A stretch of DNA of 64,000 nucleotides from Phyllobacterium endophyticum (GTDB lineage: Bacteria; Pseudomonadota; Alphaproteobacteria; Rhizobiales; Rhizobiaceae), in assembly GCF_003010935.1 (NCBI RefSeq), contig NZ_PGGN01000003.1, forward strand, positions 682,001-746,000. Reading direction: 5' to 3'. A program made the translations under genes and the position numbers. Numbering within the stretch: position 1 is the first letter of the stretch; each line of letters begins with the position of its first letter. The notes beneath the pieces are model-generated. The model had not been told where the DNA came from, searched no databases, and worked only from the letters and a program-made list of their open reading frames with translations. Below, in pieces: positions 15,518 through 38,178 of the stretch.

Positions 15518-16561
15518 TCAGTTGGTTGCTTTGGAGGCAGCCGCCACCCACTGTTTAAACTGTTCTTTGTTGTCGGATATCCAGCTGTCGGCCAGCTTGT
15601 TGATCTGACTGGTGCTTCCACCCTTTTCATTAATCGTGTGTTCCCACTCCGACCACGTTGCAAGTGGAAACTTCATTTCTTCAAGGAGGATCTTAACCTG
15701 CGGGTTGGCCGCAATGAACTCGCGATTGGCTACGGAAATCCAGTTCCATGAGGCCATCGCCATCCGGCATGGATCTGCACCGCCTGCACATCCTGTAACA
15801 CCCTTGACCTCGGCAGATCCTTTATTCGGCACTGATGGAGGAAGCGCATCGAAGGGCGTTGGCAACCAAACAACATCTTTGCCCGGAACCAGTGCATTGT
15901 TCACCCATGACGGGCTCCACGCGTAGAAGAACGCTGGCTCCCCGCGTTTCACCCGGGCGACAGCTTCCACCATGAGCGCTTCATACTTGCCTCTGACGGA
16001 ATTGATCGTGTCCTTCAACTGGAACTTCTCCAGCTGAAAATCCACAACATCCCCGCAACTCCAGCCTGGATCGCAGTTGATGAGATCTGCTTTGCCCTTC
16101 TTGCCGAAAAGAGCCGCTATCTTCGGATCTTTCATCTGTTCCAGTGAGGTGATGTTGTTGGCATCAGCTGTCTTCTTGTCAATCAGATAGCCATTAATAC
16201 CGCCGCCGACGATCATACCGTCGCCGATGGCCATGGCCTGTTTTTCTACCTTGAGGTAGCCCGGTTCACGTTGGGGGAAATTGATGTCCGATGCGACATC
16301 AAGATCACCTTGTGCGGCGGCTTGAAAGAACAGAGTCGTATTGATGGTGCTGAGTTTTACGTCATAACCCATCTCCTTTAAGGCAGCCATGACAATCTGT
16401 GCCGTCACATAATTTGCCCCGAGACTATCGGATTGTGCAAAACGGATTGTCTTGCCGCTACCCGGTAGATTCTGGGCAATTGCGGCCTGCCCACAGGTCA
16501 TGACTCCTGCAATAGCCAATGCCGCCGTCGCTCGCATGATTGTTTTGATGATGAATTTCAT
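15518..16561 (-). CDS. proX: glycine betaine/quaternary amine ABC transporter, substrate-binding protein (ProX type)
   Basis: 347 residues. A Sec signal peptide covers residues 1-29 (ending AIAQ). The mature protein is an OpuAC/ProX-type binding protein: GKTIRFAQSDSLGANYVTAQ, GYDVKLSTINTTLFFQAAAQGDLDV and PAFFYAWSPSWVNN, the last carrying aromatic residues typical of betaine cages. Four cysteines (CDPGWSC and CAGGADPC) could form disulfides. It captures a quaternary ammonium compound in the periplasm. It is the last gene of the proV-proW-proX unit and lies downstream of the ring-cleavage operon, so its ligand may be that pathway's substrate rather than glycine betaine. Confidence 0.9.
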   Translation of the reverse strand: MKFIIKTIMRATAALAIAGVMTCGQAAIAQNLPGSGKTIRFAQSDSLGANYVTAQIVMAALKEMGYDVKLSTINTTLFFQAAAQGDLDVASDINFPQREPGYLKVEKQAMAIGDGMIVGGGINGYLIDKKTADANNITSLEQMKDPKIAALFGKKGKADLINCDPGWSCGDVVDFQLEKFQLKDTINSVRGKYEALMVEAVARVKRGEPAFFYAWSPSWVNNALVPGKDVVWLPTPFDALPPSVPNKGSAEVKGVTGCAGGADPCRMAMASWNWISVANREFIAANPQVKILLEEMKFPLATWSEWEHTINEKGGSTSQINKLADSWISDNKEQFKQWVAAASKATN

Positions 16562-16658
16562 ATGCGTTCTCCTTCTGGATCGTTTCTTTTTTCATTGTTG
16601 GTGCATCCCTTCGTGACGATTCAATCTCCTCTCTCCAAGATCCGCGTGGTAGCGTGTT

Positions 16659-17594
16659 TCAAACTGTGCGCCGCCCTGTGGGAAGCGGCAGCTGTTGCAC
16701 ACGACCGATCTGCAGCAGGGCAAGAAGGCTGCGGAACCAGGACTTTGCCTTCACGTCCTTGGGCTGCGCCATTTTCTGAGTGATCCGGTCCAGCATCATG
16801 GCCAGGAGAACAATGGCGATACCGCCAACAGCGGCACGCCCGACATCCAGTCGTCCAAGCCCCTGAAGAACGACAAGGCCAAGTCCTTCCGCTCCAATCA
16901 TTGCGACCACGACAGACATGACCATCGCTGTCAGAACCGTCTGATTGAGCCCCCCCAATATGGTGGGTATGGCAAGCGGCAACTGGATTTCCCAAAGTAA
17001 CTGACGATTATTGGCACCAAAGGCGAGCCCGGCCTCGACCATTTCCTTCTCGACCATGCGAATGCCTATGTTGGTAAAGCGGATGAGCGGTGGCGCAGCG
17101 GCAGTAACAACCGCAACTTCGCCCGGCACCGTTCCCACACCGAACAACATAACCACCGGGACCAGATAGACGAAGGTCGGCGTGGTCTGCATGACATCGA
17201 GCACCGGTCGGACAATGTTCCAGACAGAATCGCTGCGGGCGCATAGAATACCGATAGGCACCCCTATGATCGTGCAGATAAGAATTGCGGTTGTGATGAG
17301 CGACAGGGTGGTCATGGCTTCGGACCACACACCCATGAAGGCAATTGCAATCAGGGAGACAGCGCTGAAAAGGGCGATCCCCCGGCTTGCCAGCCTGTAA
17401 GCCAGCAAAGCAATGAGAAGGACGAAAACCGGGAACGGGATTTGGTGCAGCACATAGTCATTAAAAGAAAGCAGCGTTTCAACCGGCCATTTGATGGCAA
17501 GAAAGATCGGCCGGAGGTTGAGCGCAAGCCATTCGACTCCCTTTTGTATCCACACGTCTACGGGGAAGATGTAAAGGTCTTCAGCGTCAAACAT
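16659..17594 (-). CDS. proW: glycine betaine-type ABC transporter permease (ProW type)
   Basis: 311 residues from the ATG at 17594, which overlaps the proV stop by eight bases. Six or more hydrophobic segments are visible from residue about 45 (VFVLLIALLAYRLA, FSAVSLIAIAFMGVW) to the end. The binding-protein-dependent permease core has ARSDSVWNIVRPVLDVMQTTPTFVYLVPVVMLFG and the EAA-type loop VEAGLAFGANNRQLLWEIQLPLAIPTI, which contacts the ATPase. It forms the membrane channel of the importer with ProV and ProX. The longer frame to 17666 is not supported by a ribosome site. Confidence 0.92.
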   Translation of the reverse strand: MFDAEDLYIFPVDVWIQKGVEWLALNLRPIFLAIKWPVETLLSFNDYVLHQIPFPVFVLLIALLAYRLASRGIALFSAVSLIAIAFMGVWSEAMTTLSLITTAILICTIIGVPIGILCARSDSVWNIVRPVLDVMQTTPTFVYLVPVVMLFGVGTVPGEVAVVTAAAPPLIRFTNIGIRMVEKEMVEAGLAFGANNRQLLWEIQLPLAIPTILGGLNQTVLTAMVMSVVVAMIGAEGLGLVVLQGLGRLDVGRAAVGGIAIVLLAMMLDRITQKMAQPKDVKAKSWFRSLLALLQIGRVQQLPLPTGRRTV

Positions 17595-18789
17595 TTTGAT
17601 CACCAGGAGAGGATGGTTGCGGATGGGAAGTCGCGGCGATGCGCGACAATATCTGTTCTGCGGCAAGCGTGCCGATGAGCTTGCCGCTCTCGTCTATGAC
17701 TGCCATTGGCTGGCCGGACCTGTAGACCCGCGCCACGTCGACGAGTTTGGCATTGGCAGGAACGGTGACATATTCGCCTGAGAGCAGCGGCCCGGGGGAT
17801 GTTCCGCCATTGACTCGCCGCTGGTCTGTGGCACTGAGAGCGCCAAGAATACGATTGTCTGCATCGACGATAAAGACTGGTTCGCCCGTAGCAGCAAATT
17901 TGGTCGTGACACTGCCCGTTGCTGTCTGCGATATGCCCTGAGCTGCTGTCATGATCGAGCGTGCATCGAAGAGTCTGGATCGGTCTATTTCCCGGGTGAA
18001 AGCGGCAACGTAGTCGCTGCCGGGTTCAAGCACGATCTGCTGAGGCGTCCCCTCGCGCACAAGTTCGCCTTCGGACATGATCGCGATACGCGTACCGAGC
18101 TTTAGCGCTTCCTGAAAATCATGTGTGATGAACAGGATGGTTTTCTTGAAGGTTCGCTGCAAGCGCAGGAGTTCGTCCTGCATCTCCGTCCGGATCAGCG
18201 GATCGAGCGCACTGAATGCCTCATCCATGATCAGCACATCGGCATCAGTCGCCAGCGCACGGGCGAGCCCGACCCGCTGCCGCATCCCGCCGCTAAGTTC
18301 ATGGGGGAAGTGATAGGCCCAACGCGCAAGACCAACAACGGATAGAACTTCCTCAGCCCGCCTACGCCGCTCCTGCAGGGGAACGCCGCGCAGCTTTAAT
18401 CCAAATTCCGTGTTCTCGATTACACGCTTGTTAGGCAGCAGAGCGAAATGCTGGAAAACCATAGAAATGCGGGTCCGGCGAATTTCACGCAACCGCTCTT
18501 CATCGAGGGGGACTAGATCCTCGCCGTCAAGAAGAATTTTTCCCGAACTGGGTTCATTCAACCGGTTGATACAGCGGGCCAGCGTCGACTTGCCGGAACC
18601 CGATAGGCCCATGATCATGTAGATGGCCCCCGCCGGGACCGACAAGGTCACGTTGTTCAGGCCGACCACCGCGCCAGTCTTGGCAAGGACATCATCCTTG
18701 TTGCTGCCAGCCGCAAGCATCTGCATTGCCCGATCCGGCGATCGAGCGAAAATCTTGTAGAGATTCTCAATCTTTAGACACTCTGTCAC
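17587..18789 (-). CDS. proV: glycine betaine-type ABC transporter ATPase with CBS region (ProV type)
   Basis: 400 residues from a GTG at 18789. Walker A is at residues 61-69 (GLSGSGKST), followed by the Q-loop (SMVFQHFALLPNKRV), the signature LSGGMRQRVGLARAL and Walker B (DVLIMDEAFSALDP). The C-terminal third (about residues 280-390) contains two CBS-like repeats (GEPVFIVDADNRILGAL, GQPMAVIDESGKLIGTL), as in ProV/OpuAA, where they sense ionic strength. It energises uptake through ProW. It starts 171 bases after the NIPSNAP gene on the same strand, so cotranscription with the upstream catabolic genes is plausible. Confidence 0.93.
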   Translation of the reverse strand: MTECLKIENLYKIFARSPDRAMQMLAAGSNKDDVLAKTGAVVGLNNVTLSVPAGAIYMIMGLSGSGKSTLARCINRLNEPSSGKILLDGEDLVPLDEERLREIRRTRISMVFQHFALLPNKRVIENTEFGLKLRGVPLQERRRRAEEVLSVVGLARWAYHFPHELSGGMRQRVGLARALATDADVLIMDEAFSALDPLIRTEMQDELLRLQRTFKKTILFITHDFQEALKLGTRIAIMSEGELVREGTPQQIVLEPGSDYVAAFTREIDRSRLFDARSIMTAAQGISQTATGSVTTKFAATGEPVFIVDADNRILGALSATDQRRVNGGTSPGPLLSGEYVTVPANAKLVDVARVYRSGQPMAVIDESGKLIGTLAAEQILSRIAATSHPQPSSPGDQNV

Positions 18790-18960
18790 GATCGGTTCCC
18801 ATCTTGTTGGCGCTTGCTCTCTTTGCGGACGCTCCGGCGCTGATTGTTAATGAAAAAGCTAACTGCATGATCCGTCTTCCAGCGATGCGTAGGAGAATTG
18901 CGACGGTCGTTCCTTACAAGAACCGGAACGGTCCCTGGCCAGAACAACGCGTTTATTTGG

Positions 18961-19302
18961 TTACACGCGCAATTTCGTTACGGCATCGTTCATTCTGAAC
19001 TCTTCCCTTTCATTGGCGAAGAAGCCTGTTGCGAGGCCTGCGATATTCTGCGTCAAACGCGGGAAAAATGCCGGCCAACGCGTATCTTCAGCCAGGATTT
19101 TACGCCGACGCATCCGGTGCTCGAAATCGCTATAACCCCACAGATGGTTGCCTTGATTGAGTGTTCCGGTCTCTGTCGTAAAGCAGCCGATCGGGTTTGC
19201 GAGAATGGGCTGCTGGATAGCCAGCCCCTCTTGTCTGACAAGCTTCAAACAGCACGCGAGCCTGCCAGACTTGATCCGGTTCATGCGTTGCTCGCCTATC
19301 AC
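18961..19302 (-). CDS. NIPSNAP family protein
   Basis: 113 residues from a GTG at 19302 that overlaps the stop of the upstream gene (GTGA), showing translational coupling. The sequence follows the bacterial NIPSNAP pattern over most of its length: a short first strand, GRLACCLKLVRQEGLAIQQPIL, GCFTTETGTLNQGNHLWGYSDFEHRMRRRKILAEDTRWPAFFP. The fold is a dimeric ferredoxin-like barrel related to ABM proteins. The family's biochemical role is unclear, but members often sit in aromatic or heterocycle catabolic operons. It is the last gene before proV. Confidence 0.78.
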   Translation of the reverse strand: MIGEQRMNRIKSGRLACCLKLVRQEGLAIQQPILANPIGCFTTETGTLNQGNHLWGYSDFEHRMRRRKILAEDTRWPAFFPRLTQNIAGLATGFFANEREEFRMNDAVTKLRV

Positions 19303-19688
19303 GGCCGCTGCTCCGCTTTCATTTCGTTACGGATGGCCTGAGCCACGCGGAAACATTCGACTCCGGCCGGTATCCCGCAATAGACCGCGATCTGGATCAG
19401 GGCGGCACGAAGTTCTGCCTCCGTCAGCCCGTTGCGAACAGCCCCGCGAAAATGGACGCCGAATTCGTGCATGCGTCCTGTCGCTGCCAACATACCAAGA
19501 TTGAGCAGACTACGCTGCTTAAGATCGAGCGCTTCATCCGTCCAGGCGGCACCCCAGCAATATTCGTTCAGCACATCCTGAAACGGCCGCGAAAATTCAT
19601 CCGCATTGTTCAGCGCCCGGTCCACATAATCATCGCCCAGGACCTTGCGCCTGACCGCCTCGCCTTCCTGTTGCAAATGCTTATCCAT
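19299..19688 (-). CDS. carboxymuconolactone decarboxylase family protein
   Basis: 129 residues. It matches PcaC/AhpD-like proteins: FSRPFQDVLNEYCWGAAWTDEALDLKQRSLLNLGMLAATGRMHEFGVHFRGAVRNGLTEAELRAALIQIAVYCGIPAGVECF, with the conserved EF.VH and GIPA motifs. The classical reaction is decarboxylation of gamma-carboxymuconolactone, but protocatechuate genes are absent here. A role on a lactone or dicarboxylate intermediate of the neighbouring pathway is more likely (inference). It overlaps the hydrolase gene by eight bases upstream and the NIPSNAP gene by four bases downstream, so the three are co-translated. The AhpD CxxC peroxidase motif is not present. Confidence 0.87.
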   Translation of the reverse strand: MDKHLQQEGEAVRRKVLGDDYVDRALNNADEFSRPFQDVLNEYCWGAAWTDEALDLKQRSLLNLGMLAATGRMHEFGVHFRGAVRNGLTEAELRAALIQIAVYCGIPAGVECFRVAQAIRNEMKAEQRP

Positions 19689-20496
19689 GGCCTACCAAAT
19701 CCTCCTCCATGAGAAAACCCTTCATCATGCCAGCAACAAGCTCCGGCGCCTCGATGAGGATCGAATGGCGTAAGCCCGGCAAGATCTGAAGCCGTGATCC
19801 GACGATGCGTTCATGCATATAGCGTGCCATGCGCGGATTTGAACCGGCGTCTTCCTCGCCGGTGGCAATCAATGTGGGACAACGAATCTGATCAAGAAGG
19901 CCACCAAAATCCGTCTCCGCCAGCACGCGGTACGCAGAGGCGTAACATTCAGGAACGTTCAATGCATTGCGCGCACGCAGGGCATCAATCTTTTCTGGAT
20001 TTTGCGCCTGGAAATTCTCGGTAAGCCAGCGCGATAGCGAAGCGTTATAATGGGAGCCCGGTTCACCTGCCTGCAGTGCGGCAAGCCTTGACAGCACACG
20101 CTCTCGCTCGTCCGGCGTGCGTCCGGCCACAGTGGAAAGCAGAACGAGGCGGCGGATGCGATCGAGATGCGTCAGGGCAAGCCGCTGCGCGATCAGACCG
20201 CCAAGCGAAAAGCCGGCGAGATGAAAGCTTTGAAAATCCATATGATCCGCGAGTGACAATGTCTCGGCAACAAAATCATCTATATCGTAACGGCCCTTGA
20301 TCTTGGTGGAATCGCCGTGCCCGCGAAGATCGAAGGTCAGTATCGTGAAGTCGCCCGCCAACCGTTCAACGACTCCGCTCCACGCTTCGAGGGAGGAACC
20401 AACGCCGTGAATGCAGACCAAAGGATCCGGCCCGTTTCCATCGACACGGTAGTTCAAATTGACGCTTCCTACGCGGTGGTGGAGCGGGCCGACCAT
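19681..20496 (-). CDS. alpha/beta-fold hydrolase (candidate amide/enamide ring-fragment hydrolase, TgnD-like)
   Basis: 271 residues from the ATG at 20496, one base beyond the stop of the monooxygenase gene. The catalytic set is visible: oxyanion HGVGSS near residue 30, nucleophile Ser in GFSLGG, acid Asp in GEEDAGSN and His in GLRHSILIE. It belongs with PcaD-like and E-2-(acetamidomethylene)succinate-hydrolase-like proteins. In trigonelline degradation a hydrolase of this fold splits (N-methylformamido)methylene-succinate into succinic semialdehyde, CO2, formate and methylamine; that role is proposed here from context. It overlaps the decarboxylase-like gene downstream. The longer frame to 20547 would overlap the monooxygenase gene. 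Confidence 0.85.
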   Translation of the reverse strand: MVGPLHHRVGSVNLNYRVDGNGPDPLVCIHGVGSSLEAWSGVVERLAGDFTILTFDLRGHGDSTKIKGRYDIDDFVAETLSLADHMDFQSFHLAGFSLGGLIAQRLALTHLDRIRRLVLLSTVAGRTPDERERVLSRLAALQAGEPGSHYNASLSRWLTENFQAQNPEKIDALRARNALNVPECYASAYRVLAETDFGGLLDQIRCPTLIATGEEDAGSNPRMARYMHERIVGSRLQILPGLRHSILIEAPELVAGMMKGFLMEEDLVGHG

Positions 20497-20497
20497 C

Positions 20498-21577
20498 TTA
20501 CTCACCTGCAACGGCAAGGCGGGTACTTTCACGCTCGCGCCGGGCAAAGAAGGGCATCACCTCTTCAGCAAACAATCGCAATGTATTCTTCTGCAATTCA
20601 AATGGCAGGTTGAATGACAGACCAAGACAATATTGATCGACGCCGGCTGCCTCGTAGTCCAGCAGCTTTTCGATCACCTCATCGGGCGTCCCGAACATAA
20701 GATTCTTGCGAATACTCTCCGGATTATAATTGTCGCGGCCTTTGACGGTGTCGAAAGGCACGGCTTCCGGGAACCCGTTGGTCACAGTACCGATATTCTG
20801 GAACAAGTTCTCGAAAGTCCTGCCATAATCCATGCTGTGCTGGACTGCCACCTGCCAGTCGTCAGGCTTGGCATAGACGCAGGTGCGACGTTGCATCATA
20901 AATTTCGGCCGAGGAACATGGGGATGATCCGCAACAGCCTTGCGGAACTTTTCACCAAGCACGGCAATTTCCGCGGCTGGTGCGGAGAGCGGCGTTGACA
21001 ATATGTTCGCACCATTGGCCACGGCCCAGTCGAATGTGCCGGGGTCTCTTGCAGCGACCCAGATGCGCGGATGCGGCTTCTGCAACGGCTTTGGGACGGA
21101 TGTAGCCAAAGGGAATTTCCAGTAGTGACCATCATGGGCATAGTCGCCGGCCCAAAGCTTCTGCACGGCTGGCACCAGTTCCTTCATATAGGCGACACCC
21201 TCCTGCTGGGGGATACCGCCGGCCATGCGATCGAACTCGTATTGATAAGCGCCGCGGGCGATGCCGAATTCGAGCCGCCCGCCGGTCAGGTGATCACAAA
21301 GCGCGGCCTCTCCTGCCAGCCGGATTGGCGTCCAGTAAGGCGCAACCAGCGTCGCCGTGCCAAGCCTTATCCGATCGGTGTGCTGCGCCAGCCAGGTAAG
21401 CACTGTAAAGGGATTGGGCGAGATCGTGCATTCGATCGTGTGATGCTCCGCTGTCCACAATGTTTCAAAGCCACCTGTATCTGCCAGTTTTACGAGCTCG
21501 AGCATATTGCCCAGCACGCTCTTCATTGGTGTTTCGGGTGAAAACCGCTCCATGCTGAGTGAGACTGCAAATTTCAT
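20498..21577 (-). CDS. LLM-class flavin-dependent monooxygenase (candidate ring-cleaving oxygenase, TgnB-like)
   Basis: 359 residues, full length for the bacterial-luciferase-like family. Typical stretches are LVKLADTGGFETLWTAEHHTI, NPFTVLTWLAQHTDRIRLGTATLVAPYWTPIRLAGEAALCDHLTGGRLEFGIARG, and PHPRIWVAARDPGTFDWAVANGANIL. It needs reduced flavin, supplied by the flavin reductase two genes upstream. In the trigonelline pathway such an oxygenase opens the pyridinium ring directly between C5 and C6. The neighbourhood (reductase, aldehyde dehydrogenase, alpha/beta hydrolase, betaine importer) supports that type of reaction, but the actual substrate is inferred. A GGGA box precedes the ATG. Confidence 0.86.
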   Translation of the reverse strand: MKFAVSLSMERFSPETPMKSVLGNMLELVKLADTGGFETLWTAEHHTIECTISPNPFTVLTWLAQHTDRIRLGTATLVAPYWTPIRLAGEAALCDHLTGGRLEFGIARGAYQYEFDRMAGGIPQQEGVAYMKELVPAVQKLWAGDYAHDGHYWKFPLATSVPKPLQKPHPRIWVAARDPGTFDWAVANGANILSTPLSAPAAEIAVLGEKFRKAVADHPHVPRPKFMMQRRTCVYAKPDDWQVAVQHSMDYGRTFENLFQNIGTVTNGFPEAVPFDTVKGRDNYNPESIRKNLMFGTPDEVIEKLLDYEAAGVDQYCLGLSFNLPFELQKNTLRLFAEEVMPFFARRERESTRLAVAGE

Positions 21578-21611
21578 GTTTGTCCCTTCCCGGGCTTTTT
21601 CGATGTGATTG

Positions 21612-23123
21612 CTATTTGAGCCGGATTACGAACGGGTCCTGCATGGCGCCCGAATAATCGATCACCACGTTCTTTGATCGCGAGAATTCCCGCATGACGT
21701 CGAAACCGCCGCGTCTTCCGTATCCACTTTCCTTGAAGCCGCCATTCGACGACATGTAAGCAGCTGACCGGTACGTATTGACCCACACCGTCCCCGCATC
21801 GATATTGCGGGCAAAGCGCATCGCCCGGTCGATGTCCTGGGTCCAGATTCCGGAAGCCAGCCCGTAGTTCGTGTCATTGGCAAGGGTGATCATCTCTTCC
21901 TCGCTCGAAAAAGGCATGACGCCGACCACGGGGCCGAATATTTCGTCGCGCATGAACCCCATGTCGTTGTGCGCATCGCTCAGTATGGTCGGTTCGTAAT
22001 ACCAGCCACGCGCCAGGTCTTCCGATTGCGGCCTGCCTCCGCCAAAAGCAACCTTTGCACCATCACGCACACCAGAGGCGACATAGGCCTCGACTTTCTC
22101 CAGCTGCGCCGACAGCGCCAGCGGTCCGACATCCGTATCCTCATCAAGGGGATGACCCACCTTTATACGGCGCGTGCGTTCAACAAGCGCGTCCATGAAC
22201 TCGTCGTAAATACTGGCTTCGACAAAACATCTCGATCCGGCGACGCAGGTCTGTCCGGCTGCCGCGAACACCCCTGCCACAACGCCATTGACCGCACGTT
22301 CGATATTCACGTCGCCAAAAACGACATGCGGTGATTTTCCGCCCAGCTCCATCTGGCAAGGCACGAGATTGGCGGCAGCGTTTGCGGCGATCCGGCGACC
22401 TGTCTGGGTGCTTCCGGTAAATACAACCTTCGTGATGCCCCTGTGGCGGGTAAGGGCTTCGCCAGCCGTCGCGCCATTGCCGGTTACGACATTGACCACG
22501 CCCGCCGGAAAGCCCGCCTTTGCAATCAGTTCGGCGAACGCCAATGTCGAGGCGGAGGCGTGTTCGGAAGGCTTGATGACAACCGTATTGCCAATGGCAA
22601 GACAGGGAGCCAGCGTCCCCGTGAGCAGCATGAGCGGCGAGTTCCACGGTGTTATCATGGCGATGACCCCGAGGGGTTCGCGCATATTGAAGTTGATCAT
22701 GTCAAGCTTGTTGACGGGTATGGTATCACCCTGCAGCTTGTCGGCCATGCCTGCAAAATATGTATAGGCATCGGGCATGGCGCGCATCTGCGCCAGCATT
22801 TCCTTGAGCAGCTTGCCATTGTCCCGCGTTTCGATCATTGCCAATTCATCGGCATGCTCGGTTACGAGTTCTGCAAGACGGCGTACCAGCTTGCCGCGAT
22901 CCGTCTGCGTCATCCGTCGCCATGCCGGGTTTACCAGCGCAGCGCGCGCAGCTTTCACCGCCTTGTCAACATCAGCTTCATTCGCGTCCGCCAGCTGATA
23001 CCAGGCTTCACCATTGGTCGGATCATAACTGGGAATATAGACGCCGCTTGCCGGTTGTACAAAAGCACCGCCAATGAACAGGTTCTGGCGTGAGCCCTCT
23101 AGTGTCTTTACCGTCGTTTGCAT
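21612..23123 (-). CDS. NAD(P)-dependent aldehyde dehydrogenase (candidate TgnC-like)
   Basis: 503 residues, full length. The ALDH hallmarks are MITPWNSPLM, FTGSTQTGRRIAANAAANLVPCQMELGGKSP with the general-base Glu, and the catalytic Cys in GQTCVAGSR. The C-terminus has WVNTYRSAAYMSSNGGFKESGYGRRGGFDVMREFSRSKNVVID, as in betaine-aldehyde- and hydroxymuconic-semialdehyde-type enzymes. Between the flavin reductase (18 bases upstream) and the monooxygenase (34 bases downstream), it most likely oxidises the ring-opened aldehyde or hydroxylactone to a dicarboxylate, as TgnC does in the trigonelline route. The substrate assignment is inference. Confidence 0.87.
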   Translation of the reverse strand: MQTTVKTLEGSRQNLFIGGAFVQPASGVYIPSYDPTNGEAWYQLADANEADVDKAVKAARAALVNPAWRRMTQTDRGKLVRRLAELVTEHADELAMIETRDNGKLLKEMLAQMRAMPDAYTYFAGMADKLQGDTIPVNKLDMINFNMREPLGVIAMITPWNSPLMLLTGTLAPCLAIGNTVVIKPSEHASASTLAFAELIAKAGFPAGVVNVVTGNGATAGEALTRHRGITKVVFTGSTQTGRRIAANAAANLVPCQMELGGKSPHVVFGDVNIERAVNGVVAGVFAAAGQTCVAGSRCFVEASIYDEFMDALVERTRRIKVGHPLDEDTDVGPLALSAQLEKVEAYVASGVRDGAKVAFGGGRPQSEDLARGWYYEPTILSDAHNDMGFMRDEIFGPVVGVMPFSSEEEMITLANDTNYGLASGIWTQDIDRAMRFARNIDAGTVWVNTYRSAAYMSSNGGFKESGYGRRGGFDVMREFSRSKNVVIDYSGAMQDPFVIRLK

Positions 23124-23141
23124 AGGCTGGGTCCTGCATTG

Positions 23142-24164
23142 CTAAGATTGTTCGCGCATAGTTTTCTGCCAGGGCTGGGCATCACCCTCGATCATTGCGA
23201 GGCGTCCACCGTCCCTTGAATCCATGTAGATGCCGAAGCGTGCATCGAGCCTCTCGCGCACGTAACGGCGCAGCATTGCGCGCAGCTCGCGTGTTGGAAT
23301 GGCATCATAGGGAAGCGCCTGGATGGGGAAGAATTTGAGGTCGGCTGGCAATGCGACGCCCATTGAATCCTGAGAAAGCCGGGCACGATAGATCAGGTAA
23401 CCTGGATCGCTGTCGGCAACGTCGAAAACCGAATAGAGAAAGGTGTTATCTGGAAGCAGAGTAAGAGCTCCACCATCGTCGAGCTTCAGTTCATTGTCGG
23501 CGATACGGCGTTTTGCGCTGGGCAGCACCCATCCACCCCTAGCGTCCGAGCGCAGCAGGATATTGCCCTCCGCCTCGATGAGGTAGCCAACAACCATGCC
23601 GTGAGAAGCGAGCCACCCCGCAGGCAATGGATCTTTGACATTGGCATAACGCCCGCGACAGAAGCCAAGCGGCGCCGAAGGGCTGGTGCCGAACGCGCGC
23701 ACCTGGCCGATGAGAATGATATGATCACCGGCATCAATACTGTTGTGCGTGGTGCAGTCGAACCAGGTCAGGCAATCGGTCAGGACCGGCGCACCGGTAT
23801 GGACCCGGTCATGGCTGACCGATTGAAACTTGTCCGGCGATTTCGATGCGAAGACGCCTGATATTTCCGCTTGCCCCTCATGCAGGAAGTTGACCGCAAA
23901 AAACTGAGCTTGATTGAACACCGGGAAACTCGTGGCGCCCTTGCCAACGCAAACCAGCAGCAATGGCGGATCGAGGGATACCGAGGTGAAGGAATTGGCA
24001 GTCATCCCTCGTGGATTGCCTTCGCAGTCGATGGTGGTGATGATCGTCACCCCGGTCACAAAAGTCCCGAAGGCCCTGCGCAAGGCGATGGGATCAATGG
24101 CTGTTTCGGTTTGCGGGGCTGGTGCCAACATGCACACGTTACCTTGCTGCTCTCTGCTCGTCAT
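23142..24164 (-). CDS. flavin reductase with C-terminal Nudix-like extension (candidate TgnA-like)
   Basis: 340 residues. Residues about 25-185 form a flavin reductase domain of the DIM6/NTAB family (ALRRAFGTFVTGVTIITT, GMTANSFTSVSLDPPLLLVCVG, FDCTTHNSIDAGDHIILIGQV). The last 150 residues (GNILLRSDARGGWVLPSAKRR onward) look like a Nudix-type or related alpha/beta module, seen in some two-component monooxygenase reductases. It supplies reduced FMN to the LLM monooxygenase in the same operon. The start is uncertain: the ATG at 24164 lacks a good ribosome site, while the ATG at 24131 has AAGG upstream. It is the first structural gene after the PucR-like regulator (107-base gap). Confidence 0.86.
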   Translation of the reverse strand: MTSREQQGNVCMLAPAPQTETAIDPIALRRAFGTFVTGVTIITTIDCEGNPRGMTANSFTSVSLDPPLLLVCVGKGATSFPVFNQAQFFAVNFLHEGQAEISGVFASKSPDKFQSVSHDRVHTGAPVLTDCLTWFDCTTHNSIDAGDHIILIGQVRAFGTSPSAPLGFCRGRYANVKDPLPAGWLASHGMVVGYLIEAEGNILLRSDARGGWVLPSAKRRIADNELKLDDGGALTLLPDNTFLYSVFDVADSDPGYLIYRARLSQDSMGVALPADLKFFPIQALPYDAIPTRELRAMLRRYVRERLDARFGIYMDSRDGGRLAMIEGDAQPWQKTMREQS

Positions 24165-24271
24165 GGAAGCAGGCTAGGCGCTATTCTTTTTCCGTTCTTC
24201 CTCCCATAAGACGGAAAGCTTCGTCGCAATGTTCCTCCGGTACAGAGGACGAGACATCGAGCAGGCCGATC

Positions 24272-26077
24272 TCAGTTTTGACGCGGGGAATGGCTGTCGA
24301 TGACACTGTGCAGGCGGATCGCGAGTTCCACTGCGAACCGCCGGTCGGGCGTGTCGACCTCGACGCCGAACAGGTCGTGTATCCGCGACAGGCGATAGCG
24401 CAGGGTCGTGACATGCAGACCCATCGCATCGGCGCAGGCCTGGCTACGGCAACCCTCCTTGAGAAAAGCTGAAAGCGTTTCGAGGTAAGGAGTCTCGTGA
24501 GTGCGGTCATGCGCAACGATGGCGCCAATCGACTCCTCGACGAACCCCTTCACCTCTCCAACATCGGCTGCAGCGACGAACATGGGAAGGGGCCCGAAAT
24601 CCTGCCCAGACAGAACGCCGCGTCGCCCGAAGGCCCGTGCGATATTTATCGTTCGCCAGCACCTGTCCCAGTTTTCAGGATAATCGGTCAAGGTCACGCA
24701 CCGGTTGCCGACAACGACGATTGGTTCCTCCTCCAGATGCCGTTTCAGTTCCTCGGCGATGCGGCGCATCAGCTTCGCTGTTCGCTCCTGGCCCTTGCCG
24801 GCTTCGAATGGCACAAGACAGACAAGCCCGTCCGCTATTGAGACGACACTCGCGTGAGCCGTATTTTGCTGGACAAGGCGCAGGACCGTGTGATGCAGGT
24901 CAGCCGACTTGCCTGCAAGTGTGCGTGTCTGTTCCGGAAAGTCCACTACGATCATCTGTGAGGGGGAAGTGAGGTTCAAGCCGAGCCTTTGACTTCGCTG
25001 CAATAGATCGCTGGCATCGCGCCAGCGATGCTCGACCAGTTCCATGAACAGTTCTGTCAGGGTCCGCGTTTCAAAACGAAAACGGATGAAACTGCGCATC
25101 ATCTGCACACTCAGTGCAAATTTGGCGCTGTCAAGCAGCAGAAGATCGAGATCGCTGAACGCCTGTGCCGTCGGAAAGATGAAGAGGGCGCCGACTGCCT
25201 CGCCATCGACGCTCAGCGGTTCGATTCGAACCGATAGATGAAACCGTCTCGTCCCATCGTCGAGGAACAGTGTTTGCGGCTCGGCGCGGGGATTGTCGAC
25301 CGCTTCGCGCGCGGATTTCATCAGCTGCCGGTTGAGAGAAGTTGCAGTGGCATTGTGCCATGTATCATCGGTGAAATGCGCGGGATCGGGGGATTTTCCC
25401 CCGATCAACAAATTGGCGTTGAAGTCCACCACGATCACCGGATTGGCAAGAAGATCGCCAATCGTTGTGGCCAGCGTGGGAATGGAACCCCCTGCCAGCA
25501 CATCCTGAAGCAGTGACGTGTGCGCGTGCAAAACAGTTTGCAAACGCTCGCCGGCCAAACGCTCGGCCCGAAGCCGGTGCTGCTTTTCGATTGCTATGGC
25601 GCCCAGGTGTACGATCATGCCGAGAAAGGCGAGGTCATCATCGGATACGTCCACGATTTCGCGGGAAACTACATTGAGTACCATGGGCCGGCCATCCGCA
25701 TCGGCGCATTGCATCGGCATAACCAGCACGGTGCGGTAGTCACGCTCAAAGGCTTCCTTGCGATAGCCGGGAAACTCTTCCGAAACGCGGGCGTCGCGTA
25801 TGTAAACAGGCTCGTTGCGCTTCAGCGCGATCAGTGAGGGGCTGGTTGCCAGCTCCCAGCGGTCTTTCAGCACCCGTTGCAGCAATGTCGGATCGTGGCG
25901 CAGCATGACGTGGGCATAACCATGCGCTGCATCGATGCTCATGATCGAGCCCATCGTCCAGCCTGCCTGGCGGCAGGCGACCTGCAACAGATGGCGCAGC
26001 ACAGTCGTCAGATCACCTCCCGAATTGATCAGGCTGGCGGCTTCGCGAAGCGATATTATCTGATCCTTGTAGTTCAC
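24272..26077 (-). CDS. PucR/CdaR-like transcriptional regulator with N-terminal GAF-type sensor
   Basis: 601 residues. Residues about 25-180 form a GAF-like ligand domain (LRHLLQVACRQAGWTMGSIMSIDAAHGYAHV, GMIVHLGAIAIEKQHRLRAERL). A middle region follows, and the C-terminal PucR helix-turn-helix domain ends the protein: ETLSAFLKEGCRSQACADAMGLHVTTLRYRLSRIHDLFGVEVDTPDRRFAVELAIRLH. It is encoded at the head of the minus-strand catabolic operon and faces the divergent DUF1185-GabT operon, so it is the obvious candidate to activate both in response to the substrate or a breakdown product. Regulators of this class commonly control catabolism of purines, amino acids and N-heterocycles. Confidence 0.87.
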   Translation of the reverse strand: MNYKDQIISLREAASLINSGGDLTTVLRHLLQVACRQAGWTMGSIMSIDAAHGYAHVMLRHDPTLLQRVLKDRWELATSPSLIALKRNEPVYIRDARVSEEFPGYRKEAFERDYRTVLVMPMQCADADGRPMVLNVVSREIVDVSDDDLAFLGMIVHLGAIAIEKQHRLRAERLAGERLQTVLHAHTSLLQDVLAGGSIPTLATTIGDLLANPVIVVDFNANLLIGGKSPDPAHFTDDTWHNATATSLNRQLMKSAREAVDNPRAEPQTLFLDDGTRRFHLSVRIEPLSVDGEAVGALFIFPTAQAFSDLDLLLLDSAKFALSVQMMRSFIRFRFETRTLTELFMELVEHRWRDASDLLQRSQRLGLNLTSPSQMIVVDFPEQTRTLAGKSADLHHTVLRLVQQNTAHASVVSIADGLVCLVPFEAGKGQERTAKLMRRIAEELKRHLEEEPIVVVGNRCVTLTDYPENWDRCWRTINIARAFGRRGVLSGQDFGPLPMFVAAADVGEVKGFVEESIGAIVAHDRTHETPYLETLSAFLKEGCRSQACADAMGLHVTTLRYRLSRIHDLFGVEVDTPDRRFAVELAIRLHSVIDSHSPRQN

Positions 26078-26249
26078 CTTGTTCCAAGCTCCCGCGTCGC
26101 GCGGTGCAACTTAATTCATTTGCTGGCAGTGAATGCTACACCGCTTCTGAGGGGAAGCCAGCAGCTTTTTGCTCGCAACCATAGGAAGACATCCCGTCTG
26201 CCGCACCGTTAGCTTCATGCATCACCGACCGGATCGAAAGCACTGCAAG

Positions 26250-26840
26250 ATGACACTTGAAATCAGAAAGATCGCCACCTTTGTGGAAGAAACCATGATC
26301 GAGGGTGGCCGCAAGGCCGAGCGCCCCGTTACCATGGTCGTTGTGGCAGCAGTTTTGAAGAACCCCTGGGCAGGCAAAGGTTTCGTCGAGAACCTGCGCC
26401 CGGAAATCCTGCGTCTGGCACCACCGCTCGGGGCTGAAATGACCCGCCGTCTGGTGGCGTTGATGCCCGCTGACAAGGTCGAGGCCTACGGGAAAGCTGC
26501 GGCTGTTGGCGTCAACGGAGAGATCGAGCATGCTTCCGCGCTGATCCATACACTGCGCTTCGGCAACATGTTGCGGGAAGCCGTGAATGGTACGACATAT
26601 CTCAGCTTCACCAACACCCGCAACGCTCCGGGCTCGCTCTTGTCTCTGCCGATGACTCACAAAAGCGAAACCGGCAAACGCTCGCACTTCCTGACTGCAA
26701 CATTCCAGATAAACGATGCGCCCGCACCCGACGAGGTGCTGATCGCTATAGGCGCTTGCGACAATGGCCGCGCGCACCCGCGCATTGCTGACCGGTTTCA
26801 GGACATGGCGGAAATGGAACAGGAAAAGGCCTTGGTCTGA
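26250..26840 (+). CDS. amino acid synthesis (DUF1185) family protein
   Basis: 196 residues from the ATG at 26250; the longer frame to 26169 lacks similarity to the family start. The sequence matches the DUF1185 'amino acid synthesis' pattern: LEIRKIATFVEETMIEGGRKAERPVTMVVVAAVLKNPWAGKGFVENL, KVEAYGKAAAVGVNGEIEHASALIHTLRFGNMLREAV and a closing ADRFQDMAEM. No reaction is established for the family. It is the first gene of the plus-strand operon divergent from the ring-cleavage genes. Its association with LLM oxygenase/flavin reductase loci suggests a catabolic step, despite the family name. Confidence 0.82.
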   Translation: MTLEIRKIATFVEETMIEGGRKAERPVTMVVVAAVLKNPWAGKGFVENLRPEILRLAPPLGAEMTRRLVALMPADKVEAYGKAAAVGVNGEIEHASALIHTLRFGNMLREAVNGTTYLSFTNTRNAPGSLLSLPMTHKSETGKRSHFLTATFQINDAPAPDEVLIAIGACDNGRAHPRIADRFQDMAEMEQEKALV

Positions 26841-26873
26841 TACTGCGATTCGTCGGCGGGAGCATTGCAGAAA

Positions 26874-27800
26874 ATGACGTTTCTCTACCACGCGGACGCC
26901 GAGCGGGGCATGGAATGGGCTGCCCTTTTTGCGCAAAGGGCACCGGATATTGCCTTTTCTTTTCGGCCGCATGAGACCCATCCTGCTGATGTGCGCTATC
27001 TCGGCGTATGGCATCCTCCGGCTGATATCGTCACAACCTATCCCAACCTGCAGGTTCTGTTTTCACTGGGTGCTGGTGTGGACCAGATTGACTTGGCCGC
27101 CTTGCCATCGGATCTGCCTGTCGTGCGCATGATCGAACCCGGAATTTGCGACGGCATGGCAGAATATGCCACCCTTGGAGTTCTCGCGCTGCACCGGCAT
27201 CTCCTTTCCTATGTTTCGCAGCAAAGGCATGGCGACTGGCGCGGCATCCGGTTCGGTCCTGCTGCGGAGCTGCGCGTCGGCATAATGGGCCTCGGCGTCC
27301 TTGCGCGGGCCGTCATCAACAGGCTGCGTCCCTTTGGCTATGTTTTGTCTGGCTGGAGCCGTTCGGCCCATCAGATCGAGGGCGTGCACTGCCATTCAGG
27401 CGAGTCTGGACTTCCTGCATTCCTTGCGCACTGCAATATCGTGATCTGTCTCTTGCCGCTGACCGGTGAGACCGCCGGCATCCTCAATTCGACCCTGTTC
27501 AATATGCTTCCAAAGGGCAGCGCATTGATCAATTGCGGGCGGGGTGAACATCTGGTTCAGGCCGATCTATTGGTGGCTCTCGAGACGGGCCAGTTATCGG
27601 GTGCCGTTCTCGACGTGACCGACCCCGAGCCCCTTGCCGCGAACCATCCTTTCTGGTCGCACGAGAAAATATTGCTCACGCCGCACATAGCCAGCATGAC
27701 CCAGCCCGACACGGCGGTTGACGCGGTGATCGCCAACATTCGCCGCCATCGCAGTGGAACTGCAATGGTCGGTCTCGTCGACCGGACTCGTTCTTATTGA
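26874..27800 (+). CDS. D-2-hydroxyacid dehydrogenase, glyoxylate/hydroxypyruvate reductase A type
   Basis: 308 residues from the ATG at 26874 (GGGAG 11 bases upstream); a TTG nine bases earlier is possible. The GhrA-type subgroup is recognised by the nucleotide motif VGIMGLGVLARAVINRLRPFGYVLSGWSRS, the catalytic Arg in INCGRGEHLVQADLLVALE, the Glu region AVLDVTDPEPLAANHPFWSHEKILLTPHIASMT and its His. It reduces 2-oxoacids such as glyoxylate or hydroxypyruvate with NAD(P)H. Its stop overlaps the region just before the next gene by a few bases. A role in recycling an oxoacid by-product of the pathway is inference. Confidence 0.86.
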   Translation: MTFLYHADAERGMEWAALFAQRAPDIAFSFRPHETHPADVRYLGVWHPPADIVTTYPNLQVLFSLGAGVDQIDLAALPSDLPVVRMIEPGICDGMAEYATLGVLALHRHLLSYVSQQRHGDWRGIRFGPAAELRVGIMGLGVLARAVINRLRPFGYVLSGWSRSAHQIEGVHCHSGESGLPAFLAHCNIVICLLPLTGETAGILNSTLFNMLPKGSALINCGRGEHLVQADLLVALETGQLSGAVLDVTDPEPLAANHPFWSHEKILLTPHIASMTQPDTAVDAVIANIRRHRSGTAMVGLVDRTRSY

Positions 27801-27805
27801 GGAAT

Positions 27806-29281
27806 ATGATGAACCCGCTTGGACTAAACGACCCGACCCTGTTCGTACAGCAAGCCTATATCGGCGGTAGATGGACAGACGCATCCGGCTGCCAAACGCT
27901 TAACGTAGACAATCCATATTCTGGCGCCATCATAGGCAGCGTGCCTGACTGCGGTCGCGATGATACCTCTGAAGCCATTGCCGCCGCGGATCTTGCCTTG
28001 CGCAACTGGCGTGCCAGACCGGCAGCAGAAAGAGCAGCGCTCCTGGAGCGCTGGCACGCGCTCATCATTGACAATGCTCCTGATCTGGCACGGATCATGA
28101 CTGCGGAACAGGGAAAGCCACTGGCGGAAGCGGAAGGCGAAGTGCGTTATGGCGCAAGCTTCGTGAAATGGTTTGCCGAAGAGGCCCGTCGCATCTGCGG
28201 GTTTACCGTTCCCGCTCCGACGGCTGACCGGCGAATCATGATGATGAAGGAAGCTGTCGGCGTTACCGCTGCCATTACCCCCTGGAATTTTCCAAATGCC
28301 ATGATCACCCGCAAAGCCGCCCCGGCGCTGGCCGCCGGATGCACTATCGTCGTCAAACCCTCGGAACTCACACCATTTTCCGCGCTGGCGTTGGCGGTGC
28401 TGGCCGAACGTGCCGGTTTGCCGGAAGGGGTAATCAGCGTCGTCACTGGCCGTCCGGAAGCCATTGGAGCAATGCTGACAGAAAGCGCCACCGTGCGAAA
28501 AATTTCTTTTACCGGATCAACTCGCGTCGGTGCCATGCTGATGCAGCAAAGTTCGGCGACTCTGAAACGCCTCAGTCTTGAGCTGGGTGGCAATGCTCCA
28601 TTTATCGTGTTTGACGATGCGGATATCGAGCTTGCGGTTAGCGGCGTTATCGCCAGCAAATTCCGCAATGCCGGTCAAACCTGCATATGCGCAAATCGTA
28701 TCCTGGTGCAGGACGAGATCTACGATCGTTTTGCTACAAGACTGGTGGAAGCAGTCGGCAAGTTGCGCACTGGTGACGGGCTTGTCGCCGGCAGCACCAT
28801 TGGACCGCTGATAAACGCGGCTGCGGTCGCGAAGGTACGCGTGCATGTAAGCGACGCGCTTGGAAAAGGCGGGACACTCCTCACGCCCGCAGACGCGGAC
28901 AAAGGTGGCGGCCGCATCGTATCGCCAGTCATCGTCGGCAATGCCACGACCGCCATGCTTCTTGCCAATGAGGAAACGTTCGGCCCGGTTGCTCCGCTCT
29001 TTCGCTTCCAAGCAGAAAGCGAGGCTATTCATATAGCCAATGCAACCCCTTACGGACTCGCCGCCTATTTCTATACGCGCGATCTCAACCGGTCCTGGCG
29101 TGTCGCCGAACAATTAGAATTCGGCATGGTTGGCCTCAACACAGGCAGCATTTCCATGGAAGTTGCACCTTTCGGCGGGGTCAAGCAATCCGGCATAGGC
29201 CGTGAGGGCGGCGCACTGGGGATCGAGGAATATCTCGAAGTCAAAAGCTTTCACATCGCCGGCCTCGACGCCGTCTACTAG
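27806..29281 (+). CDS. succinate-semialdehyde-type dehydrogenase (GabD/TgnE-like)
   Basis: 491 residues. The ATG at 27806 follows GAGG and lies six bases after the reductase stop. The ALDH core has AAITPWNFPNAMITRKAAPALAAGCTIVVKP, FTGSTRVGAMLMQQ, SLELGGNAPFIVFDDADIELAV and the catalytic Cys in GQTCICANR. The ELGGNAPFIVFDDAD and EVAPFGGVKQSGIGREGG stretches are typical of NADP-dependent succinic semialdehyde dehydrogenases. The proposed role is oxidation of succinic semialdehyde to succinate, the last step of both the trigonelline-type route and GABA degradation. The following aminotransferase fits the same product. Confidence 0.88.
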   Translation: MMNPLGLNDPTLFVQQAYIGGRWTDASGCQTLNVDNPYSGAIIGSVPDCGRDDTSEAIAAADLALRNWRARPAAERAALLERWHALIIDNAPDLARIMTAEQGKPLAEAEGEVRYGASFVKWFAEEARRICGFTVPAPTADRRIMMMKEAVGVTAAITPWNFPNAMITRKAAPALAAGCTIVVKPSELTPFSALALAVLAERAGLPEGVISVVTGRPEAIGAMLTESATVRKISFTGSTRVGAMLMQQSSATLKRLSLELGGNAPFIVFDDADIELAVSGVIASKFRNAGQTCICANRILVQDEIYDRFATRLVEAVGKLRTGDGLVAGSTIGPLINAAAVAKVRVHVSDALGKGGTLLTPADADKGGGRIVSPVIVGNATTAMLLANEETFGPVAPLFRFQAESEAIHIANATPYGLAAYFYTRDLNRSWRVAEQLEFGMVGLNTGSISMEVAPFGGVKQSGIGREGGALGIEEYLEVKSFHIAGLDAVY

Positions 29282-29306
29282 CTGCACAAATACCGGAGAC
29301 CACCTG

Positions 29307-30590
29307 ATGACCAGTACCGCCCCAAAGACGCAGGATTTGCTTGAGCGGCGTGACCGCAATATCGCGCGCGGCATTGCTACCGCTCACCCCATTCTTGCCA
29401 GCAAGGCGAAAGGGACCGAACTTTGGGATGTGGAGGGCAGACGCTATCTGGATTTCGTTGGTGGAATCGGAGTCCTCAATGTCGGGCATAACCATCCGCG
29501 GGTCGTCGACGCCGTGAAGAGACAGATCGAGACCTTGTCCCATGCCTGTTTCCAGGTTCTCGGCTATGAGCCCTATGTCGCGCTGGCGGAAAAACTGAAT
29601 ACCTTGATTGGAAAGGACTACAAAAGCGCCTTTTTCACCTCTGGCGCGGAGGCTGTCGAAAATTCGGTGAAGATTGCTCGCGGTTACACCAATCGCCCGG
29701 CCGTCATTGCATTTCGTGGCGGCTTTCATGGCCGCACATTGCTAGGTGTTTCGCTGACGGGAATGAGCCAGCCCTACAAGCAGAATTTCGGTCCGTTCGC
29801 ACCAGAGATTTTCCATATTCCGTACCCCAATGCCTATCGGGGTGTAACCACTGCCGATGCGCTCGCGGCCCTTGCAGAGGTCTTCGCAACAGACGTCGCC
29901 CCGGAGCGCGTAGCCGCCATCATTATCGAGCCTGTGCAGGGCGACGGGGGTTTCCATCCTGCCCCGGTGAATTTCGTCGCGGCGCTCCGTGAGATAACAA
30001 ACAAGCACGGCATTGTCCTTATTCTGGACGAGATACAGACAGGATTTGGACGGACAGGCGAGATGTTCGGTTTTCAGCACTCGGGCATCGAGCCCGATCT
30101 CGTAACCATTGCTAAGAGCTTGGCCGGAGGCCTCCCTCTGTCAGCCGTCGTTGGGAAAGCAGAGATCATGGATGCGCCAACACCGGGCGGTCTTGGCGGA
30201 ACCTATGGTGGCAACGCCCTCGCCTGTGCTGCCGCATTGGCCGTCATCGAGACATTCGAACGGGATGATATACTTAGGAACGGAAGACAACGCGCAGCGC
30301 AATTACGAAAAGGGTTGATAGCCCTCCAGCAAAGACATGCCTTCATCGGCGATGTCAGAGGATTAGGCTTTATGCTGGCTATCGAGATCGTCAGCGATCG
30401 CGCAACGAAGGCACCGGATGCCGATCGGACACAACATGTGCTCGATGAAGCCCGCAAAGGCGGACTGCTTCTCATTAAGTGCGGCATTCATCGCAACACG
30501 GTTCGCTTTCTCGCACCGCTTGTCGCTACTGAAGCTGAAATCGATGAAGCGCTGGCCGCCCTTGGCGAAGCATTGGAGCGCGTTGATTAA
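29307..30590 (+). CDS. 4-aminobutyrate-type aminotransferase (GabT-like, class III PLP)
   Basis: 427 residues from the ATG at 29307 with GGAG upstream; the longer frame to 29202 lies inside the preceding gene. Class III aminotransferase features are FFTSGAEAVENSVKIARGYTNRPAVIAFRGGFHGRT, the LILDEIQTGFGRTGEMFGF segment, and the PLP Lys in TIAKSLAGGLPLSAVVG. The N-terminus (RRDRNIARGIATAHPILASKAKGTELWDVEGRRYLDFVGGIGVLNVGHNHP) is characteristic of GABA transaminases. It converts GABA or a similar omega-amino acid with 2-oxoglutarate to the semialdehyde, feeding the preceding dehydrogenase. It is the last gene of the operon. Confidence 0.87.
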   Translation: MTSTAPKTQDLLERRDRNIARGIATAHPILASKAKGTELWDVEGRRYLDFVGGIGVLNVGHNHPRVVDAVKRQIETLSHACFQVLGYEPYVALAEKLNTLIGKDYKSAFFTSGAEAVENSVKIARGYTNRPAVIAFRGGFHGRTLLGVSLTGMSQPYKQNFGPFAPEIFHIPYPNAYRGVTTADALAALAEVFATDVAPERVAAIIIEPVQGDGGFHPAPVNFVAALREITNKHGIVLILDEIQTGFGRTGEMFGFQHSGIEPDLVTIAKSLAGGLPLSAVVGKAEIMDAPTPGGLGGTYGGNALACAAALAVIETFERDDILRNGRQRAAQLRKGLIALQQRHAFIGDVRGLGFMLAIEIVSDRATKAPDADRTQHVLDEARKGGLLLIKCGIHRNTVRFLAPLVATEAEIDEALAALGEALERVD

Positions 30591-35970: not shown

Positions 35971-36043
35971 GGTGCCCCGTAGCCTTTCGGCCCTCGACCG
36001 GTCGCCGAAGACCAGACTTTTAAGCTGAAGGAAAGGACAAGCT

Positions 36044-36901: not shown

Positions 36902-36914
36902 CTTTTTCCTTTGC

Positions 36915-36952: not shown

Positions 36953-36999
36953 GCATCACATGACGTGTTCGTGACGGCTGCCCCTGTTTGGAGAATTTA

Positions 37000-38172: not shown

Positions 38173-38178
38173 GACGTC

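Follow-up and report, generated by a model that had tools for sequence, protein, structure and literature searches.

Which compound is broken down by the genes at positions 15518 to 30590 of the window, the 64,000-nucleotide stretch of Phyllobacterium endophyticum contig NZ_PGGN01000003.1 analysed here? A preliminary description had proposed a pyridinium-betaine ring-cleavage locus of the trigonelline type with its own importer, on the basis of the enzyme kinds of the trigonelline (Tgn) pathway of Acinetobacter baylyi ADP1. We found that the genes are real and form one conserved catabolic module, which is also carried on plasmids. Judged by its gene groups and regulator, the module is probably closest to the trigonelline pathway without being a member of it, and in our judgement its substrate is a compound other than trigonelline. 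We consider it fairly probable that the module acts in the Tgn manner on another zwitterionic N-heterocycle, the likeliest kind being a pyridinium carboxylate (betaine). Conserved ring-cleavage genes that come with a dedicated importer suggest that many soil bacteria can use a compound so far overlooked, and labelling such loci as trigonelline degradation from enzyme kinds alone is probably wrong. Literature searches, which were word-based and not sequence-based, found no paper on this gene group.

A conserved module related to the trigonelline clusters

Scanning a collection of genome contigs with the window's oxygenase gave 206 pattern matches, 201 of which were confirmed as encoding a relative. 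Counts for relatives refer to the best 80 of these 201, whose oxygenases are 79-85% identical to that of the window and of which 67 have full flanks; the genes in their loci were called with an open reading frame (ORF) caller trained on codon use, the DNA being GC-rich. On the same stretch as the oxygenase lie a flavin reductase and an alpha/beta hydrolase (79/80 each), an aldehyde dehydrogenase and a PucR regulator (78/80 each) and an AA_synth gene (77/80), and since these core genes are kept together in 77-79 of the 80 relatives, the gene set is not a product of chance. Less frequent parts are a carboxymuconolactone decarboxylase-family gene (CMD; 38/80) and, in 19/80 each, succinate-semialdehyde dehydrogenase (SSADH), a transaminase and a GhrA-like gene. 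The relatives range over alpha-, beta- and gammaproteobacteria and include, by record titles, Rhizobium, Mesorhizobium, Bosea, Azospirillum, Ensifer, Shinella, Pseudomonas, Caballeronia, Pandoraea and Methylobacterium, and 60 plasmid records hold a copy of the oxygenase at 60% identity or more.

The likeness to the Tgn pathway goes beyond enzyme kinds. In the reference cluster, on a plasmid of Acinetobacter sp. PK01, annotated tgnA, tgnB and tgnC lie beside AA_synth, hydrolase, SSADH and CMD genes under a GntR regulator. For TgnB itself, PMC11354265 gives the UniProt accession Q6F9F6. The window's reductase is 35% identical to TgnA, its oxygenase 42% to TgnB and its aldehyde dehydrogenase 45% to TgnC, and the neighbouring genes are matched as well (hydrolase 30%, AA_synth 51%, SSADH 54.5%, CMD 44%). 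Flavin reductase, luciferase-like oxygenase, aldehyde dehydrogenase, alpha/beta hydrolase, SSADH and AA_synth are thus common to the Tgn clusters and the window, which also has both the NIPSNAP type of gene found in the S. meliloti cluster and the CMD type found in PK01. This S. meliloti cluster, on pSymA, lies between nodL/noeAB and nifT. The AA_synth product belongs to the DUF1185 family, for which PMC7913881 describes homology to A. baylyi TgnF, a protein that stimulates TgnE; a role of the family in amino-acid metabolism was proposed earlier from neighbours and fold, according to PMC2954203.

The differences are equally consistent. Tgn clusters have a GntR regulator, whereas the window has a PucR type with a GAF domain; their importers are of the cytosine-permease type or another ABC set, in contrast to ProVWX; and their gene order is AA_synth-hydrolase-reductase-oxygenase-dehydrogenase, against reductase-dehydrogenase-oxygenase-hydrolase in the window. 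The order of the GntR type was seen in loci L024, L026, L028-L030, L131-L133 and L135, with L134 and L136 one gene short each in the gene calls. Trigonelline chemistry is not known to require a gamma-aminobutyrate (GABA) transaminase, and in the divergent operon of the window SSADH is followed by one. The Tgn-like enzyme set of the preliminary description is therefore upheld part by part, with AA_synth and SSADH included, but clade, regulator and gene order do not support its identification as a trigonelline locus.

Separation from the TgnB-type oxygenases

Alignment with the PK01 proteins established homology (30-55%), but in all trees the window's group splits off. In the oxygenase tree (65 rows, with 29 of the 87 window-group copies included) the window's group stands on one side of a branch supported at 96/99 and the 18 TgnB-type rows group together at 100/100, in a clade that holds the annotated PK01 TgnB and the S. 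meliloti pSymA cluster. The outgroup of this tree is weak, since only five of the seven other loci of the own genome were usable, on very long branches, and the root has a support of 68/46; the split between the oxygenase groups is independent of this outgroup, while the order of the groups depends on it. Quick trees of four further genes separate the window's group with Shimodaira-Hasegawa-like approximate likelihood ratio test values of 100 (reductase), 100 (aldehyde dehydrogenase), 99 (hydrolase) and 100 (AA_synth). Group labels were assigned by identity to PK01 TgnB, and the quick trees hold no rows from the group at 49-52% identity; some of their reductase rows at 60-63% may be fusions. 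The separation is also visible in single residues: at 41 oxygenase positions at least 95% of the 87 window-group rows share one residue and at least 90% of the 18 TgnB-type rows share another.

We searched for the annotated TgnB in the genomes of 50 of the 80 relatives and found a second oxygenase of the wider family in 17, namely six of TgnB type (70-73%), seven at 60-63% and four at 49-52%. In Shinella yambaruensis a single contig carries both a TgnB-type and a window-type oxygenase gene, with about 12 kb between them; the TgnB-type cluster is of the GntR type, and no SSADH was seen there. The juxtaposition of two such clusters is an argument for two substrates. When 81 genomes of the host's family were compared with the window's oxygenase at 1e-80, nine gave a match, namely the window's own, seven with a TgnB-type copy and one with another type. 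The designation as a trigonelline degradation locus was rejected on these group tests and on the co-occurrence with TgnB-type oxygenases, which together suggest that the module works in a Tgn-like way and is probably not the trigonelline pathway.

Some of the more distant clusters are of interest in their own right. In five of the seven clusters of the 60-63% class (L137, L138, L140, L142 and L143) the reductase lies within a protein of 567-619 residues, apparently as a fusion. The Pseudomonas loci L144-L147, with oxygenases 49-52% identical to TgnB, have a TgnA-like reductase; L145-L147 carry a cytosine-permease-type transporter and L146 also N-methylglutamate dehydrogenase genes, and these four are candidates for the degradation of another N-methylpyridine carboxylate such as homarine. 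An oxygenase lineage 50% identical to that of the window is found on a plasmid of Parasedimentitalea marina (L025, 4410-20083), together with a fused coenzyme A (CoA)-transferase/flavin reductase, RidA, enoyl-CoA-hydratase-type and acyl-CoA genes, and is perhaps a CoA-dependent variant for another substrate.

The probable substrate and its proposed breakdown

From the genes observed and their Tgn homology we infer the following reactions, the analogy drawing in part on the Tgn steps given in the preliminary description and in the PK01 annotation. ProVWX would import the zwitterionic N-heterocycle, and PucR, through its GAF domain, would sense the substrate or an intermediate. Flavin reductase and oxygenase would cleave the ring, giving an N-formyl enamide aldehyde that the aldehyde dehydrogenase would convert to the acid. 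From this the hydrolase, assisted perhaps by the PcaC-like product of the CMD gene, would free an amine, formate, CO2 and succinate semialdehyde, the last going to succinate through SSADH. The amine freed would be transaminated, being taken up by the products of atf and ssd in some relatives and perhaps by those of gabT and gabD in the window; to judge from gene neighbourhoods, it is probably 2,4-diaminobutyrate-like (or GABA-like).

The importer would fit a betaine-like ligand. ProV, ProW and ProX are each present in 40 of the 80 relatives, and about half have an amino-acid-type ABC set instead (binding protein in 38, permease in 37). The only PDB match of the window's ProX at 1e-10 is 1r9l (2.3e-53). 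All three parts of ProU, the glycine betaine importer, are matched in the window. Among 41 ProX proteins (the window's and those of 40 relatives), the residues aligned with Trp140 and Trp188 of the E. coli protein are Trp in all 41, whereas the place of Trp65 holds Phe in 29, Leu in eight and Met in four, and that of His69 holds Arg in 32, Leu in seven and Ser in two. These places presumably hold the quaternary amine, in a cage of three Trp, and the carboxylate. On that assumption, the window's ProX, which keeps two cage Trp but has Phe for the third and Arg for His, probably binds a ligand other than glycine betaine. We compared 39 copies of the alternative binding protein at the place where amino-acid binding proteins have an Asp for the alpha-amino group: 38 have Ser and one has Thr, and EhuB of R. 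etli likewise lacks Asp there. Judged by these residues, binding proteins of both types would suit a ligand that is betaine-like but not glycine betaine.

The nature of the amine is suggested by genes linked to the module in some relatives. As described in PMC5924519 and PMC13188858, Atf converts diaminobutyrate to aspartate semialdehyde, the SSADH-related Ssd converts the latter to aspartate, and DoeB deacetylates N-alpha-acetyl-diaminobutyrate. R. etli Atf and its counterpart from the S. meliloti ectoine cluster share 91% identity. We found atf (at least 50% identity) in 17 of the 80 loci, mostly adjoining ssd and Lrp, and just beyond the edge of two further ones, Pandoraea L106 and L107, where contig numbers and record names are taken to agree. 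This makes 19/80 window-group loci with linked atf versus 0/29 Tgn-like clusters (Fisher p = 0.003; none in 18 of TgnB type, seven at 60-63% and four at 49-52%), some control loci having short flanks (L141, L145 and L167, about 12 kb in total). Compared with the ectoine cluster (eutABC-doeAB, asnC-ssd-atf), the relatives' loci share Lrp/AsnC in 33/80, ssd in 19/80 and doeB in 7/80, four of the seven with doeA; doeB is linked in none of the 18 TgnB-type loci. The ring opener differs, being DoeA in the ectoine cluster and the oxygenase in the module.

The link with atf is concentrated in genomes in which no DoeA scored over the model cut-off. Such genomes make up 27 of the 80, and they comprise 15 of the 19 with linked atf versus 12 of the 61 others (p = 5e-6), with one of the 15, G126, having a best DoeA score of 583 against the cut-off of 613 bits. 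Rhizobium sp. Leaf453 and Ensifer oleiphilus are examples of relatives that lack ectoine hydrolase. Three loci carry doeB in genomes with no DoeA over the cut-off: Pandoraea L106 and L107, with the order AA_synth-GhrA-doeB-Lrp-ssd followed by atf, and Paraburkholderia L093, where doeB-Lrp stands behind two ProX genes. The DoeB of L106 scores 486.6 against a model cut-off of 402.7 bits, and for L107 and L093 the assignment was made from identity to R. etli DoeB (60 and 62%). Counting atf anywhere in genomes with no DoeA at 1e-150, we found it in 21 of 26 of the window's group versus one of 27 module-free controls from the host's family. The 21 include all six Rhizobium, Ensifer or Chelativorans genomes among the 26, and atf was found in none of three DoeA-less genomes with a TgnB-type copy (G003, G009, G057). 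Because the genomes are interrelated, the p-values make the case look stronger than it is, and all controls belong to a single family. Linked atf in 19/80 loci, with 15 of the 19 genomes lacking DoeA, suggests a betaine that releases a diaminobutyrate-like amine, and it makes a concrete, testable prediction on the chemistry.

The linkage might instead be non-metabolic, arising from shared compatible-solute islands and from recombination through a common Lrp/AsnC gene, which we regard as possible, if on the unlikely side. In R. etli CFN 42 the module lies on p42f inside an ectoine/hydroxyectoine cluster (L151, 16439-28135), where it forms an insert some 10.7 kb long, flanked by direct Lrp/AsnC copies that share 96.8% DNA identity, and the cluster is unbroken in Rhizobium sp. 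NLR16a; the insert likely arose by recombination through the Lrp/AsnC gene. In seven of the 28 DoeA-bearing relatives, moreover, no more than about 16 kb separate DoeA from the oxygenase. A mere sharing of islands is, however, at odds with the preponderance of DoeA-less genomes among the atf-linked loci, with the doeB genes of the two Pandoraea loci and the Paraburkholderia locus, and with the excess of atf over the module-free controls.

Taken at face value, the same linkage leads to a more specific idea, tentative and rather unlikely, namely that the module is a novel route for degrading a pyridinium amino acid, a pyridine carboxylate whose ring nitrogen bears a diaminobutyrate skeleton (nicotianine, or an isomer joined through the alpha nitrogen). 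Nicotianine occurs naturally. Cleavage would free N-formyl-diaminobutyrate where trigonelline gives methylamine, a DoeB-type deacylase, Atf and Ssd would lead on to aspartate, and the ring carbons would leave as succinate. If true, this would explain the separation from TgnB, the presence of atf, ssd and doeB without ectoine hydrolase, the two importers and the nic neighbours of two relatives.

These neighbours are nic genes of the kind found in the lower nicotinate pathway, encoding a 2,5-dihydroxypyridine dioxygenase, an FAD monooxygenase, a hydrolase, a racemase-type protein and an amidohydrolase; they adjoin the module in L009 (26-4940) and L033 (16213-20614), the hosts being Azospirillum oryzae and a Rhizobiales isolate; L033 additionally carries eutB, eutC, doeA and doeB.

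An unlikely alternative is that another N-methylated pyridine carboxylate (homarine, N-methylisonicotinate) is degraded with release of methylamine. Tgn-type chemistry would suit any N-methyl isomer and a betaine importer would serve it, but methylamine leaves the atf/ssd/doeB link unexplained. Scoring at most 16 candidates per genome, we detected MgdC-like genes (N-methylglutamate dehydrogenase; 45% identity or more to the PK01 copy) in five of 51 genomes, the window's not among them; in the 81 family genomes, with at most ten candidates scored, none exceeded 38%. We rejected methylamine genes as a discriminator, and the scarcity of MgdC-like genes is a weak argument, because none of the six genomes with TgnB-type oxygenases has them either. 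Two further points against homarine come from the literature: PMC13390433 reports an involvement of Mgd in homarine catabolism, and PMC8269262 considers homarine, on steric grounds, an unlikely substrate of TgnAB.

A second trigonelline pathway, with divergent enzymes and regulator for the same substrate, is quite improbable: it would account for the like enzyme kinds and AA_synth partner, the betaine-type importer and the own genome's lack of another oxygenase of this family at E <= 1e-80, but five gene trees and 41 oxygenase positions separate the groups, the TgnB type co-occurs in 6/50 genomes, once at close range, and the atf link was seen in the window's group only. An N-heterocycle that is unsubstituted at the nitrogen (pyridine, nicotinate or a related compound), yielding GABA or succinate semialdehyde, is similarly doubtful, since gabD and gabT in the window and the nic genes would suit it, but a betaine-type or Asp-less amino-acid-type binding protein is odd for an uncharged ring and GABA would need no ectoine-type transaminase.

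Several points weigh against the preferred reading of a Tgn-type module for a different pyridinium carboxylate that releases a diaminobutyrate-like amine. On the side of the Tgn analogy, the reference is an automatically annotated plasmid and not the ADP1 proteins, the identities of hydrolase and reductase to it are low (30-35%), the TgnB-type rows form one group in the reductase tree but not in the other three quick trees, and the type of an importer is no proof of its ligand. The nic linkage concerns two of 85 loci. As for the amine, linked atf is missing from 61 of the 80 loci, and no atf was found at 1e-135 in five of the 26 DoeA-less group genomes (G120, G122, G127, G128, G148). The window carries gabD/gabT instead (47% identical to ssd and 29% to atf), and at the limits used no doe or eut genes were found in its positions 5001-45000. 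In the own genome, atf (84%) and DoeA stand together on another contig, unlinked to the module. With Ser in place of Asp, the alternative binding protein makes a ligand with a free alpha-amino group less likely, and the R. etli module suggests that recombination at Lrp can join both gene sets.

Gene content of the locus and its surroundings

The locus consists of two divergent gene sets, with protein families assigned by Pfam and NCBIfam. On the minus strand, the PucR-type regulator with GAF at its N-terminus (24272-26077; PF13556, PF17853, PF13185) is followed by the TgnA-like flavin reductase (23142-24164; PF01613, 4.6e-39), the TgnC-like aldehyde dehydrogenase (21612-23123; PF00171, 6.3e-172), the TgnB-like luciferase-like flavin-dependent oxygenase (20498-21577; PF00296, 2.5e-56) and the TgnD-like alpha/beta hydrolase (19681-20547; PF00561), which scores 160.8 with the PcaD model, under the cut-off of 255.85 bits, and probably starts at about 20490. 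Next come the PcaC-like CMD gene (19299-19688; PF02627, 8.6e-20; TIGR02425 128.4, under the cut-off of 155.7 bits) and an ORF for a small NIPSNAP-type protein (18961-19302). From the reductase to this ORF the gaps are 18 and 34 bases, and thereafter the genes overlap. The NIPSNAP family is present in 32 of the loci clustered; the window's ORF is 37% identical over 83 amino acids to the NIPSNAP protein of the S. meliloti Tgn-type cluster and has no NCBIfam match at 1e-10. Its C-terminal part is unlike the homologues of 104 residues, so the gene may be degenerate in this genome.

The minus-strand set ends with the importer genes. The ProV-type ATPase (17587-18789) has a CBS domain barely above the Pfam cut-off and passes TIGR01186, the betaine/proline/choline subfamily model of NCBIfam (356.9 versus 326.6 bits); the ProX-type (OpuAC) substrate-binding protein (15518-16561; PF04069, 1e-42) passes the ProX equivalog model (382.7 versus 215 bits); and the ProW-type permease (16659-17666; PF00528), whose true start is probably inside its ORF, matches PRK10952 at 319.8 bits, under the equivalog cut-off of 439. 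The betaine-class importer of the preliminary description is thus borne out, with ProW matched below its cut-off.

On the plus strand lie AA_synth (DUF1185, TgnF-type; 26169-26840; PF06684, 2.5e-66; PDB 2qtp, 2.6e-36), whose true start is probably inside its ORF, a GhrA-like D-2-hydroxyacid dehydrogenase (26865-27800; PRK15469 218.5, under the cut-off of 403 bits), the gabD-type SSADH (27797-29281; TIGR01780 655 versus 646.35 bits) and the gabT-type GABA transaminase (29202-30590; TIGR00700 526.7 versus 506.65 bits), which probably starts at about 29307. All parts named previously (reductase, dehydrogenase, oxygenase, hydrolase, PucR/GAF, ProVWX and SSADH) have open frames of the families stated, and five genes are additions: those for the CMD/PcaC-like, NIPSNAP-type, AA_synth and GhrA-like proteins and the GABA transaminase. 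An Rfam scan of window positions 12000-34000 gave no match.

Beyond the locus, positions 34434-38964 of the window hold phosphonate-type ABC parts (PF00528, PF12974), an amidohydrolase-family protein and a GntR/UTRA regulator, likely a phosphonate locus next door, and 39343-40548 encode a Fic-domain protein with a winged helix-turn-helix. On the other side, at 2413-5543, lie a molybdopterin hydroxylase-type large subunit and an FAD subunit, possibly of an N-heterocycle or aldehyde hydroxylase.

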